From NCBI GenBank assembly GCA_002394535.1, contig DGUG01000108.1, positions 4,955-15,719 of the forward strand: a DNA stretch of 10,765 nt. The letters run 5' to 3'. This DNA comes from Lachnospiraceae bacterium UBA4316 (GTDB lineage: Bacteria > Bacillota > Clostridia > Lachnospirales > Lachnospiraceae). Both the position numbers and the translations under genes were made by a program. The notes under the pieces were generated by a model that worked only from the letters and a program-made list of their open reading frames with translations, was not told the DNA's origin and did not search any database. Positions 968-9,095 of the stretch are shown here, piece by piece (position 1 is the stretch's first letter; every line of letters starts with the position of its first letter).

Positions 968-1053
968 TTTCTGTCCACCAAGAACCCCCATTTTTCAAGG
1001 GTTTCAGCGATTTTTGCGGTGGACAAAACGATTTGAACTTTTTTTTACGTTTT

Positions 1054-1078
1054 TTTAACATCTTACTAAGATGTTAAA
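1054..1078. repeat. Perfect AT-rich hairpin, 11-bp arms, 3-base centre
   Basis: TTTAACATCTT, ACT, AAGATGTTAAA. The arms are exact reverse complements. Runs of T precede it on the plus strand (1039-1056) and another T-run follows after a short gap (1088-1096). Read leftward, the stem is followed by A residues, and read rightward by AAATTCGG, so neither direction has the U-tract of a terminator. Within the GGTGGACA cluster it could be an unwinding element, a cruciform or a regulator binding site. Confidence 0.7.
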
Positions 1079-1136
1079 TTCGGAAAGTTTTTTTTTCTTG
1101 TCCACCTGTCAACTTGTCCACCACTCTTAAAGAAAA

Positions 1137-1152
1137 CGTTGAAATTTCAACG
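1137..1152. repeat. 16-bp perfect palindrome in the repeat cluster
   Basis: CGTTGAAATTTCAACG is self-complementary over its whole length. It lies between the two minus-strand GGTGGACA copies and the three tandem plus-strand copies. A continuous palindrome of this size without a loop fits a dimeric protein-binding site better than an RNA hairpin. Confidence 0.6.
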
Positions 1153-1202
1153 GTTACAGAGAATTATACGGTGGACAAAAGGTGGACAGCGGTGGACAAA
1201 AA

Positions 1203-3065
1203 TCAGTGGTCCAGTGTCTGAGTTGTGTCCGACTGCTTCATAAACACTCTCGCGGTTTTGCCGTTGATCTTACTCTTACCGACTCCGATCCGGTACAGAT
1301 CCCAAGTCGCTGCCTTGAACAGCTTCGGTGAAAACTTGCGCCCCTCGGTGTCCCATCGGAAGAAGTCTTCTCTCATATCAGAGATGGTCTTACCGATGAT
1401 CTCATTGTCGGGATCGAGGTCCTTCGCAAACTGCAGCGCGATGTTGTTACCTTCGTGATACTGATCGTTGTAGTCCTTGACGACTTTACACGGTGACCAT
1501 TTACCGTTTGTGAATAATCTCATATATCCCTGAACGATAAGTGATATCCAGTATTCAAGAGCGTGCTGTGTCGTCATTTTGGTTATGAATGACTCATCAG
1601 GTTTGTCGATTTTATTGAACATCGGCATCCAGAGGACACGACGCTTATAGGCGTAACCCTTTTCGAATGAATGTATGTCCGAGTTAGTTGTGAAATAAAG
1701 CTTTGTGATAAAGATTGTAGTTTCTGACTCGGAATACATATGTCTTGTTGTGACCGCGTCTGCTGTGCTGATATTCTTGATGATCTTCAGCTGATCGTTG
1801 TTTATGGCTTCAGCTTCGATATCGTCCCCCAGGTTCGCCAGCTTGCCGACCATCGTTACCTTGTAACGTTCATCAACAAGCTGCTTGATCGACAGGTTTG
1901 TGCAGTTCTTCGGATTGTAGATCCTCCGCATTATTTCGAGCAGAGTTCCTTTTCCGTTGGCTCCGTCTCCTCTGAACATAAAGAACTTACCGAGTGAACG
2001 TATTTTTTCGGGATCCGTGATGAGAACGTATCCGATTACCTCCATTAGGAGTTTTTTGTAATCCTCATCCCCTCCGGTCAGATTGTTGATGTATTTATCG
2101 ACTTTCTCATCGGGATCCGCATCGGGTTTGTAGTCTATATCAATGAAATACGGAGTGAATTCTCTGAAGTCCGTCATCGGTATGAATTCGCCTTTTGTGA
2201 GTATCCCGTTCCTGAAGCGGACCGGGAAGACGGTTTCCGGTGGGATCAGCGGGGATTTATATTCGATCTGCTTGATGACCTCATCAACAAATCGCGTTGT
2301 TTCGTTCTCGCACATAGCGTAGATTCTGCGCTTCAGACGTTCGTTTTTCGGATCTGTCTGATATTCACCTTCCGGTGTATACCACCAGAGCGAACCTGAA
2401 TATTTAACAACGCGCCCCTCATTCATGATTTGATTGACGATTACCGCATACTTACTGTCCTTATCGTCTGTCTCCACTTCTTCTCTGAGGATGTAATTCA
2501 GTTCGGACGCTTCCAGAGGTTCCCCGAATACGTGATAATTAATGAATGTGATTATCTGCGTATCATCGGCAGCATTATGACTCAGCAAGGCCCTTCTGTG
2601 GGCGTACAGCTTGTTGTTCCTACCTTCGCCTTCCTGGAGACCGGTGAGGTCGTGATAGCTGCCTTTTTTATCGATGCTGAAGATCCTCGGGAGCGGTTGT
2701 CTTACTCCGAAGTTATCGATCTGTCTTTCCTTGCCGTTGCGCTTGACGGTCATTCCGTTCGGGTTCCCGTTCTGATTGTGCTGCTCTATCTCGAATCCGA
2801 GACGACAGACACCGTCTGCACGCTTCTTGAACCACAGTGGTTTACTGAACCACAGATGTGCTCCTCTTTCGGTCCACACGACCTGTGTTTTGATGTTGAA
2901 ATCTTTTATCAGTGCTTTTATTGATTCTTTCGGAAGATGGTCGATGTCGATGACAATGTCCTGATCAGAGAGCAGGAGTCCGCAGTCTGTGAACGAGTCC
3001 ATAGACTCGGAACGTTCTGCATTTTTAGGTGCGTGCTTTTCGCCTGGCAGGTACTCTATGAACAT
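1203..3065 (-). CDS. Primase-polymerase / superfamily 3 (D5-type) DNA helicase
   Basis: A 620-residue replication protein that should make primers and unwind the template for the polymerase encoded just upstream. The N-terminal part has archaeo-eukaryotic primase features: DIVIDID with Asp 40 and 42, and GAHLWF with His 70. The C-terminal half is a D5-like SF3 helicase: Walker A GDGANGKGT (366-374, Lys 372), Walker B LGDDIE (Asp 414/415), motif C FTTNSD (Asn 461), and an arginine-finger region YKRRV (474-478). I choose the ATG at 3065 because it overlaps the polymerase stop as TGATG and has AAAGG about 12 bases upstream; an ATG at 3077 would add four residues but has AAAGG directly against it. 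The 3' end abuts the GGTGGACA cluster, so this protein or DnaA is a natural candidate to act there. Primase assignment is less certain than helicase. Confidence 0.9.
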   Translation of the reverse strand: MFIEYLPGEKHAPKNAERSESMDSFTDCGLLLSDQDIVIDIDHLPKESIKALIKDFNIKTQVVWTERGAHLWFSKPLWFKKRADGVCRLGFEIEQHNQNGNPNGMTVKRNGKERQIDNFGVRQPLPRIFSIDKKGSYHDLTGLQEGEGRNNKLYAHRRALLSHNAADDTQIITFINYHVFGEPLEASELNYILREEVETDDKDSKYAVIVNQIMNEGRVVKYSGSLWWYTPEGEYQTDPKNERLKRRIYAMCENETTRFVDEVIKQIEYKSPLIPPETVFPVRFRNGILTKGEFIPMTDFREFTPYFIDIDYKPDADPDEKVDKYINNLTGGDEDYKKLLMEVIGYVLITDPEKIRSLGKFFMFRGDGANGKGTLLEIMRRIYNPKNCTNLSIKQLVDERYKVTMVGKLANLGDDIEAEAINNDQLKIIKNISTADAVTTRHMYSESETTIFITKLYFTTNSDIHSFEKGYAYKRRVLWMPMFNKIDKPDESFITKMTTQHALEYWISLIVQGYMRLFTNGKWSPCKVVKDYNDQYHEGNNIALQFAKDLDPDNEIIGKTISDMREDFFRWDTEGRKFSPKLFKAATWDLYRIGVGKSKINGKTARVFMKQSDTTQTLDH

Positions 3066-4837
3066 CACGCACACCATCCTTTCAGCTTGTTTTCAACGAG
3101 TGTCATATAATAGCCGACATCGATTATCTTTTCGAAGTCGGAGATATCGTCGACCGATTCGTTCCATATCAGCATACGTTCGGGCACATCGGGGAAATTT
3201 ACCCGTCCTCCGTCCTGTCTTATCTTGTACAACTTTGTCACACCTTCTACGTTCGGCATCGCAGCAAACACTCTGTTAACCTTGTTCTGTTCAGTGCCTG
3301 ACGCATCCTCCACACGGAGGTATGTGCTCCCGGCTTTCAGAACGAACTGCCACAGGAGCGGTTTATCACGGTTTTCGAGTAAGGTATCGAGTATCGGTTT
3401 GTTGTAAACGAGATAATCAACAAGTGCAATCTGTACGATTCTCGCGTTATTGTTGGAGAACCATTTATTGACGTGGTACTTGTTAACGTCTCCGCCCTTG
3501 ACCTCGATGCCACCGTCCTCTGTTACTGCGATATAGTTGTTTACGTCGCGCTGGATCCATTGCTTATAGGCGTCTGTTTCCAGCTTGAATCCGTCAAACT
3601 CCTGCTCCCACTTTGTTGATATCTGCTCATCGACTCCTCCGAGACTCGGATCGTCAACATATACAACACCGTCGGTGTTTGCGTTAATGACTTTGTAACC
3701 GGCTTCGTGGAGTCTCATGCAGAGCGAGAACAGAGCTATCTGTCCGTATACGCACACGGTCCCTGATGCGAGTTCGTTCTGCAGAGGTGAGTACTGATTT
3801 CTGAAGTTTCCGTACACAGAGTTGAGTATCAGTTTCAGAGCACCGGCCTTGACGGGATCGGTGTGTTTGATAGCGATACGTTCCTTCCGCATACCATCGT
3901 ACTTATCAGTAGCGTCTCCGAGCGCGTTGAGGTGTACGATTGCGGACGGATACATACTCGCAACATCCTTATGTTTGCATCTGCCGTATCTGCATGGTTT
4001 GGACGGAGCTGCGTGAAGACCGCCCATACCGAACACGACTTTACAGTCGAACGCTTTGATTGTTTTGCTTTTCTTGGTGGCAGCTGACATATCTGCAAAG
4101 ATGTCTTCCCACATCGCCCATACATCCGACGGAATACCCGGAACATTTCGCCAGTACTTTTTTGGTACCTTGTGAGTCGTCCACGGCTTTGACTGTCCTT
4201 TTCCGAGAAGGACCCGTGCCGCCAGTGTGGTCGTGTTCCATCGGTAAGCACGATCCCTGTCGGATCCGTCAAGCATCGCAAGCAGTCCCTGCTTGACCTC
4301 AAAATAGGACTTTTCTCTCAGTTTGTAGATCTCGACGGTCGCCCTTACGTCGTTACGGCAATACTCAAGCACCTCGTTCCTCTGATCAGCTGTGAGCGGT
4401 CCCCTTATGTCGAACGGTACGGACGACTCGACAATTGATATTCCGAGATTACCCTCTATTTGCTTCAGGGAAGGTTTGCTGACATCGATCTGCTGCATTG
4501 TATCCAGCGAATGGATAGCTGCATTGATGTCTCTCCCGCTCCCCTGACCTCTGATTATTGTGTCGTTTTCGAGTTTGATGTACTCGGGAAGATTGGCCCC
4601 CTGATTGAGCATTCTCGACAGGATATAATCGTCGTAATGGTAGTTATTGAATCCGACGAGGGTTTTCCCCTTGATGAGACTCGGGATCCCTTCGAACCCC
4701 GAGTCGTCGTCAATGTTCTTTCTCTTCGGATTGTTCCAGAAGTGTGCCACTTCGTTTCCGTTTATGTCCATGAATACGACAAGTGCATCTCTCTCGAAAA
4801 CTTCGATATCGTAGAATAATAACTTGTCTCTTTTCAT
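3065..4837 (-). CDS. B-family DNA polymerase with 3'-5' exonuclease
   Basis: A 590-residue replicative polymerase. Exonuclease motifs: Exo I YDIEVF (Asp 10, Glu 12), Exo II GFNNYHYDDY (62-71), Exo III YCRNDV (Asp 163). Polymerase motifs: motif A DVASMYPS (291-298), motif B KLILNSVYG (335-343), motif C NANTDG (385-390). Motif C has NTD where most family B enzymes have DTD; the second, metal-binding Asp (389) is kept. Motifs A and B are only about 40 residues apart, much closer than in phi29 polymerase, so the TPR1 insertion of protein-primed enzymes seems absent, which fits use of the primase encoded next. The start is fixed by Exo I lying at residue 10. No Shine-Dalgarno is visible; the ATG follows the previous stop by two bases, so translation probably depends on coupling. 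All catalytic motifs are intact. Confidence 0.95.
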   Translation of the reverse strand: MKRDKLLFYDIEVFERDALVVFMDINGNEVAHFWNNPKRKNIDDDSGFEGIPSLIKGKTLVGFNNYHYDDYILSRMLNQGANLPEYIKLENDTIIRGQGSGRDINAAIHSLDTMQQIDVSKPSLKQIEGNLGISIVESSVPFDIRGPLTADQRNEVLEYCRNDVRATVEIYKLREKSYFEVKQGLLAMLDGSDRDRAYRWNTTTLAARVLLGKGQSKPWTTHKVPKKYWRNVPGIPSDVWAMWEDIFADMSAATKKSKTIKAFDCKVVFGMGGLHAAPSKPCRYGRCKHKDVASMYPSAIVHLNALGDATDKYDGMRKERIAIKHTDPVKAGALKLILNSVYGNFRNQYSPLQNELASGTVCVYGQIALFSLCMRLHEAGYKVINANTDGVVYVDDPSLGGVDEQISTKWEQEFDGFKLETDAYKQWIQRDVNNYIAVTEDGGIEVKGGDVNKYHVNKWFSNNNARIVQIALVDYLVYNKPILDTLLENRDKPLLWQFVLKAGSTYLRVEDASGTEQNKVNRVFAAMPNVEGVTKLYKIRQDGGRVNFPDVPERMLIWNESVDDISDFEKIIDVGYYMTLVENKLKGWCA

Positions 4838-4839
4838 AA

Positions 4840-5460
4840 TTAGTTTTTAGGCAGCGCCTTAATGTCTCCGTAATAGAATTTTCCGAATGCTGATTTGACC
4901 TCGATAATAATGTGCGTTCCGACGAGTTCGCTCGCTCTCTCGACAGGTACGTGGAATTTTTCCTCGAAGTCTGCGTACTTCTTTTCCTTCTTGATAGGGT
5001 CCTGGAACCATTCCTTAGTGTCCTCGAGGTATATCGAGTAACTCATCTTTGACTCGTACAGCTTGCCGTCGATCTGATAACGGATTCTGATAGCGTAATC
5101 ATCGACTGTGATCTCGCTGATCTCCGTCTGATAGATCTGTTTGTTCATGTCAGCTGTGAATTTGCTGATCGTCTGCGATTCCCACAGACTGTTGAATGTG
5201 TCATAACAGTACACATCCTTTGCTACACCGACGCAGTCCTTGAGACCCGCGAAGTCAACATCGAAGTATTCCTTGCACCACTCCTCGACCTTTTCGGCCT
5301 TCTCGGGATCATCAACGAACTTTCCGTTCTGATATGACTGCTTGTTGAAGTTCACGACTCTGACCTGCTTGCGCTCCTTATCGAGGAAGGTCATTACTGC
5401 TTTGTTATCGTTGTTTTCATACTCAACGCTTACGAGAATAAGATCTTTTCTGATTTCCAT
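4840..5460 (-). CDS. Phage replication-module protein, function unknown
   Basis: A 206-residue soluble protein I do not recognise by sequence. It is rich in charged and aromatic residues, with predicted beta-rich stretches (VVNFNKQSY, YAIRIRYQIDGKLYESKMSY, HIIIEVKSAFGKFYYGDI) and no membrane segment or catalytic motif that I can identify. AAAGGA lies eight bases before the ATG. It is directly upstream of the polymerase (stop and start two bases apart) and follows the DUF1351 gene by three bases. A single-stranded DNA-binding or polymerase accessory role would fit the position and the beta-rich look, but this is inference from context only; there is no acidic SSB-type C-terminal tail (it ends KALPKN). 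Confidence 0.8.
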   Translation of the reverse strand: MEIRKDLILVSVEYENNDNKAVMTFLDKERKQVRVVNFNKQSYQNGKFVDDPEKAEKVEEWCKEYFDVDFAGLKDCVGVAKDVYCYDTFNSLWESQTISKFTADMNKQIYQTEISEITVDDYAIRIRYQIDGKLYESKMSYSIYLEDTKEWFQDPIKKEKKYADFEEKFHVPVERASELVGTHIIIEVKSAFGKFYYGDIKALPKN

Positions 5461-8570: not shown

Positions 8571-9095
8571 ATGTCATTATTCAGCAAATTGTTCAAGCAG
8601 ACCGCTGACCCAGCACCGGAACCAGTCGCACCAGCGCCGGAACCGGTCCAGAAAAAGCAATACTATGATTTCATTATAAAAAGCGCAGACGAAACCACCG
8701 ACAAAGCACTCCAGAAATATCAGAAGTTCTGGACAGATCCTGAAGACAAATACGACGGCATGAAGCTGATGGAATTCAAAGAAGAAGGTTCTCCCGGAGA
8801 CAAGGTGTATCAGTATCCCCCACTCGATGTTGATGTGAAGCTCGAAGCGTTCATCGCTGATGAAGACGGTGCCGTCACAATAAAAGGATTTATCCTCGAC
8901 GGAGCAGATAAAGAAATCTATGTCGGTACTGCAGCCAAAACGAAGGCAAAGAAGATCCTCAGGATCCTGCAGAAGGAAGACCCGAGGATCACCGGTGAAC
9001 TGTACGGCGGTAAGTACTGGAAGATGGAAGATAGCGGTTATGTCGATAACCGATGGGAAGAAGATCTCACGGTTCGTGTATATTTTGAATGGTGA
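8571..9095 (+). CDS. Pro-rich-linker protein with HIRAN-like C-terminal part
   Basis: A 174-residue protein, the only sizeable gene on the plus strand. GGAGG lies eight bases before the ATG. Residues 1-10 (MSLFSKLFKQ) could form a short amphipathic helix; residues 12-26 contain a tandem PAPEPV linker encoded by two near-identical 18-base units (8610-8627, 8631-8648). Residues 75-150 (DKVYQYPPLDVDVKLEAF..., then DGADKEIYVGTAAKTKAKKIL and ITGELYGGKY) resemble the small HIRAN-type domains of Firmicutes proteins, where the VG-I and GGKY segments recur; HIRAN domains bind DNA ends in known cases. This resemblance is from memory and moderate. No HTH is present. Its own promoter, operator-like site and terminator make it an independent unit, like a moron or lysogeny gene. 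Alternative: an unrelated phage protein of unknown fold. Confidence 0.7.
   Translation: MSLFSKLFKQTADPAPEPVAPAPEPVQKKQYYDFIIKSADETTDKALQKYQKFWTDPEDKYDGMKLMEFKEEGSPGDKVYQYPPLDVDVKLEAFIADEDGAVTIKGFILDGADKEIYVGTAAKTKAKKILRILQKEDPRITGELYGGKYWKMEDSGYVDNRWEEDLTVRVYFEW

Follow-up and report, generated by a model that had tools for sequence, protein, structure and literature searches.

A repeat array beside a phage primase-helicase gene: a probable replication origin whose iterons are respelled in step with one residue of the predicted initiator

DNA assembled from Lachnospiraceae bacterium UBA4316 carries a cluster of short repeats directly beside a primase-helicase gene, and the locus raises the question of what these repeats do and which protein reads them. 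We analyzed a stretch of 10,765 nt, called the window below (positions 4,955 to 15,719 of contig DGUG01000108.1, assembly GCA_002394535.1). Because the 15.7-kb contig encodes a primase, a phage polymerase and a large terminase subunit, it is, judged by its genes, a piece of a tailed-phage genome and not a host origin. The array is probably a phage replication origin, and its repeats would be iterons to which the adjoining primase-helicase binds through its predicted C-terminal winged helix; we put the probability of this reading at about 0.84. A sequence-only reading of the same DNA had proposed a phage origin using either host DnaA or the phage initiator. The position of the array, a layout kept in much of the family, and covariation favor the phage initiator, whereas the DnaA alternative fared badly.

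The word GGTGGACA was found in seven exact copies within 227 bp, at 972(-), 1018(+), 1099(-), 1115(-), 1170(+), 1181(+) and 1191(+), and nowhere else in the window. Dinucleotide shuffles of the window contained 0.26 copies on average and three at most, with none of 200 shuffles reaching seven. The sequence-only reading had described seven repeats on both strands beside the primase-helicase gene, three of them tandem and helically phased, in a long gene-free gap, and these descriptions were accurate. The tandem trio (1170, 1181, 1191) is spaced by 11 and 10 bp, the array starts 4 bp past the stop codon of the primase-helicase gene, and the gap at 808-1202, from the end of a helix-turn-helix (HTH) gene at 807 to the primase gene, is the longest between open reading frames (ORFs) taken as genes. 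A count across the whole 2.12-Mb assembly, proposed earlier as a check, gave 34 copies versus 49 for the reversed control, so the word is not otherwise frequent, and no second cluster was seen in the list of copies. The proposed minimum of GC skew at the array was not found, as cumulative skew falls until about 8-9 kb; this test was uninformative because the window covers 10.8 kb of a 15.7-kb contig with mostly one-way transcription.

Plasmid iteron arrays serve partition, incompatibility, and copy-control roles. The window array could do so in the style of a phage-plasmid, perhaps still bound by the primase-helicase, and P4 offers a parallel in that its type 1 repeat is found both in ori and in crr, a region required in cis. 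We consider this unlikely, as the 15.7-kb contig, although incomplete, holds no second GGTGGACA cluster but one further single copy (C1:2032), and the phage would still need an origin.

The arrangement was then compared across loci gathered via relatives of the primase or the polymerase and reduced to 103 distinct (non-redundant) primases. Arrays were counted automatically in the 66 loci that reached a family score of 600 or more and had 1,000 bases available on either side, using a motif-free detector that scans within 1.1 kb of the gene. At a detector score of at least 7, arrays were detected 3' of the primase gene in 43 of the 66 loci, versus two in the upstream control; at a stricter score of at least 9, the numbers were 32 and 0. 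Since the loci were collected through replication genes, the finding of an array next to a primase is in part a product of the sampling; this bias does not affect the upstream control or the residue scan described below. The longest iteron-free stretch within an array had a median A+T content of 0.77 (45 arrays), compared to 0.78 in the window. With iterons masked, the most shared 8-mer was AAACCCTT/AAGGGTTT, present in 18 of 41 arrays versus 0.3 expected from within-segment shuffles; its density was 19 in 12,076 bp of arrays versus 12 in 409,808 bp of the remaining loci.

What is conserved in many relatives is this layout; the word itself differs. The closest case, L001 (primase 97% identical), carries seven exact copies of GGTGGACA in the same place 3' of the gene, and the same word forms the arrays of L013 and L021. 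Elsewhere the array word is GGTGAACA (L002, L012, L055-L058, L091), GGTGAACG (L019), GGTAGACA (L022, L023), TATGGACA (L024), GGTTACCA (L014-L018) or AGTCTCAT (L020). More distant arrays read GGTTACAA/T, including those of L005 and L006 (records named for Listeria and Staphylococcus phages), or GGTAACAA, AAAGGACA, GCGGAACA and others.

These respellings bear on the idea that host DnaA opens the origin and that the repeats are degenerate DnaA boxes. The complement TTGTCCACC is indeed two changes from the DnaA box TTATCCACA, as noted before, and an A+T-rich stretch is present. The DnaA box is conserved between bacteria, however, and the words of the relatives (GGTTACCA, AGTCTCAT, GCGGAACA) are unlike it. 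Matches to TTATNCACA with up to one mismatch occurred at chance level in the window (seven versus 9.6 expected), with none in 972-1201, and the word follows a residue of the phage protein, as set out below. A DnaA-driven origin is therefore extremely unlikely.

Repeats of other kinds were also seen near some of the primase genes. In L024, 11-bp repeats of a different sequence (ATTCAACATT-like) form a tandem array in the first 90 bases past the primase stop, ahead of the TATGGACA array about 290 bp downstream. From about 940 bases past the stop, L086-L088 carry 16-18 copies of a AAAAGTTTTCC-like word, unlike the iteron arrays. The remote loci L039, L062, and L063 have dense repeats near the gene (11 GGATACA-like, 17 GATAAAAC-like, and 11 ACTGTATC-like copies, respectively).

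The word was found to change together with a single residue of the primase-helicase. The C-terminal domain of this protein is predicted to fold as a winged helix (mean pLDDT, the predicted local distance difference test score, 91), and Pox_D5 (PF03288) matches the C-terminus of the relative L028. In the window primase, Lys601 lies within the motif IGVGK. Each variable primase column was scored against the word in 19 loci, with one locus kept per near-identical pair. Column 601 scored 0.73, and the runner-up among the 475 variable columns scored 0.32. When the polymerase was used as a control (the 17 of the 19 loci that have one), the best of its 449 columns reached 0.256 versus 0.684 for column 601.

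Covariation was also assessed on a tree computed with the C-terminal part excluded, for 61 loci with a hand-assigned unit; 12 loci marked '?' and 39 more were left out, among them the remote array loci L039, L063, L196-L200, L218, L220, and L223. GACA/GATA words accompanied Lys601 in all nine Lys loci and were found in none of the 52 others. All six independent pairs agreed (two-sided sign test, p-value 0.031), and the tree required seven changes for Lys601 and seven for the GACA/GATA word, with at least 29 for the hand-assigned words. The same Lys rule held for automatically found words in 8/8 Lys loci and 0/25 others (35 loci with a detector score of at least 8.5, 33 of which had residue 601 in the alignment used). 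Over all 61 loci, 601 was the highest-scoring single column for GACA/GATA (0.272; next, 0.212). GAAC words went with Arg601 in 10 of 11 loci. The rule was obeyed by distant loci as well: L123 (Lys, AAAGGACA), L167 (Arg, GCGGAACA), and L203 (Arg, CGTGAACA).

Two HTH_3 genes (ORFs 148-372 and 607-807) just past the array suggest another function, in which the repeats would be operators of a phage repressor and be bound by these small proteins. The units are non-palindromic, though, and occur in both orientations around an A+T-rich core. In some relatives, such as L012 and L016, the first coding sequence past the array looks unlike these HTH genes (judged by eye, neither counted nor searched), and the word tracks a residue of the primase. 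We regard the operator function as very unlikely.

Near-identical pairs gave the closest view of the respelling. The primases of L056 and L022 are 98% identical, with 12 differences in about 616 residues, 10 of them within the last 95 and including Arg to Lys at 601. Their arrays share a similar scaffold with long identical blocks, but the word is respelled: 30 of 76 unit columns differ versus 45 of 283 outside the unit. Where L056 has GGTGAACA or GGTGTACA, L022 mostly has GGTAGACA or AGTAGACA; one L022 site (GGTAGCAA) fits neither. L022 and L023, which both have Lys and share a word, differ at 13 residues, yet at only one of 76 unit columns. L034 and L035 may be a second respelling pair of this kind, in which Lys is replaced by Arg and TGGATA by TGCATA, but the pair offers few unit sites and shows 35 differences. 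A further near pair, L019 and L055, has GGTGAACG and GGTGAACA on similar scaffolds, with primases differing at 31 positions.

Several observations weigh against the array being an origin read by the primase-helicase, or against residue 601 as the key to its word. No array was detected within 1.1 kb downstream of the primase gene in 23 of the 66 family loci, so the arrangement is not universal, or the array lies elsewhere in these loci. The Arg rule has an exception in L035 (TTTGCATA), and over the 61 loci the GAAC score is not specific to 601 (0.249 for column 112, 0.245 for 601). The remote L039, not among the 61, runs counter to the Lys rule: it carries a GGATACA array but aligns Gly at 601, although its wing is longer and the alignment uncertain; L063 (GATATAGT), still more remote, is without a reliable residue 601. 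Units, register, and orientation in the tree test were assigned by eye. Finally, about 75 bp separate the codon of residue 601 from the array, and their joint transfer by recombination could contribute to the linkage. The repeated independent switches and the distant L123, L167, and L203 argue against joint recombination as the whole cause, and joint transfer would not explain why Lys is repeatedly matched with GACA/GATA. Three very remote hits that lack a clear array (L065, L068, L070) likewise align a Lys at 601.

Features of the window, with the evidence for each (positions are those of the window)
Feature	Position	Strand	Basis
Iteron array, seven exact GGTGGACA and one degenerate copy	972..1198	both	reading, shuffles, similar layouts in relatives
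Composite module: CAAGGGTTT box (996-1004), spacer, GCGGTGGACAAAA iteron	993..1028	+	repeat family D1
AAGGGTTT box, most shared non-iteron 8-mer among arrays with differing iterons	997..1004	+	8-mer comparison
Longest iteron-free stretch within the array, 73 bp, 78% A+T	1026..1098		iteron-gap measurement
Perfect inverted repeat within the A+T-rich stretch, 12-bp arms, 1-bp loop	1054..1078		p 0.01 versus shuffles
Eighth, degenerate copy AGTTGACA	1107..1114	-	direct reading
Terminator-like hairpin past the primase gene, CGTTGAAATTTCAACG then TTTTCTTT	1137..1152	-	1 found versus 0.3 expected
Second box-plus-iteron module, box degenerate (CAACGGTTA), 83% identical to the first	1145..1180	+	repeat family D1
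Primase-helicase gene, 624-codon ORF, proposed origin-binding initiator	1203..3077	-	phrog_864 'DNA primase', DUF5906
Predicted C-terminal winged-helix domain, residues ~531-614	1236..1487	-	structure model; Pox_D5 in L028
Codon of Lys601, first wing strand, residue tracking the iteron word	1275..1277	-	covariation, model
Phage DNA polymerase gene, adjoins primase gene; covariation control	3065..4837	-	phrog_1252, E 2.1e-133

Within the array (see table), the iteron-free A+T-rich stretch is a candidate DNA-unwinding element. The inverted repeat inside it is not a general feature, as inverted repeats with p-value < 0.05 were found in six of 45 arrays. The box-plus-iteron module, 36 bp long, is present twice in the window, and the hairpin may mark the end of the primase transcript within the array. 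Among the neighboring genes, the primase-helicase ORF matches phrog_864 with an E-value of 5.6e-126 and DUF5906 with 1.9e-15. The gene at 4840-5460 belongs to phrog_6479, a family of unknown function, and has a sub-threshold ThermoDBP-RP match; its product is possibly a phage single-strand DNA-binding protein. A 174-codon ORF at 8571-9095 is read from the plus strand, in the direction opposite to that of the replication genes.

The layout resembles that of several known systems. In Staphylococcus aureus pathogenicity islands (SaPIs), the C-terminal domain of the Rep helicases recognizes iterons directly downstream of the gene, according to the passages on Rep in PMC7581432. Origins of phage-inducible chromosomal islands (PICIs) are described, in the parts of PMC6092414 that deal with them, as directly following the 3' end of the initiator gene, with an A+T-rich region between two iteron sets, and the authors state there that this layout is shared by no other known bacterial replicon. 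The window array, as a putative origin, likewise lies immediately 3' of the putative initiator gene, and its iterons flank an A+T-rich region; the predicted winged helix, whose residue 601 tracks the word, may be a counterpart of the iteron-binding C-terminal domain. Unlike these islands, the window contig has its own polymerase and large terminase subunit, which speak against a satellite; it is apparently not one, although the contig is incomplete. By eye, a Streptococcus satellite phage (L226, 2827-3180) shows a comparable repeat and A+T-rich layout with the AAGGGTTT box directly past a VirE gene.

P4 alpha binds origin repeats via a winged helix, as described in sections of PMC4234260. It is likewise a primase-helicase initiator, and in the P4 record crr lies directly 3' of alpha. 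Eleven of the 16 annotated type 1 repeats in crr and ori read GGTGAACA exactly, which is one letter from GGTGGACA and is the exact word of L012, L055, L056, and others. The family profile matches alpha residues 394-636, the helicase part (E-value 1.4e-9 in a one-sequence database), but a profile of the window domain did not significantly match the alpha C-terminal domain (E-value 0.13), and the P4 domain structure was not among the VIA matches listed. P4 also differs in that its ori proper lies on the opposite side of alpha at a distance of 2.1 kb, and in that the alpha primase part is described as Toprim type (same sections of PMC4234260). In the phage-inducible chromosomal island-like element (PLE) of Vibrio cholerae, the origin and the DNA-binding domain of the initiator RepA covary and are functionally matched, as reported in portions of PMC8263062. 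Covariation of origin and initiator, both putative in the window family, is common to the two systems, but PLE has a RepA_N initiator, three iterons of about 30 bp, and whole-module exchange between two types, whereas the window family shows many respellings tracked by one residue. The helicase Cch2 of the staphylococcal cassette chromosome mec (SCCmec), whose C-terminal domain on its own binds direct repeats located past the operon on its downstream side (passages on Cch2 in PMC7581432), shares with the window a helicase C-terminal domain and downstream repeats (a putative origin), but has a separate primase-polymerase, AAGTG iterons, and a chromosomal cassette as carrier.

From the features shared with SaPIs/PICIs, P4, and PLE, the window system looks to work like P4 alpha/crr and the SaPI/PICI rep-ori. 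Several copies of the primase-helicase would bind the phased iterons that flank the A+T-rich stretch, and the helicase part would melt this stretch and load. Priming would fall to the primase part of the protein or to a partner, and extension to the phage's own polymerase. It differs from the known systems in being carried by a phage that has a polymerase and a terminase, and in showing many respellings that follow a single residue of the wing.

How specificity changes jointly in an initiator and in the many copies of its origin word is an open question, since altering only one partner should destroy the match. Repeated natural switches occur in this family, one of them between 98%-identical proteins, so that natural proteins can be used to test the question directly. 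A layout described as specific to the origins of phage satellites would be extended to a phage that encodes its own polymerase and terminase. The arrays also supply candidate origins for many phages that are uncultured, as well as for some that bear the names of Listeria and Staphylococcus.
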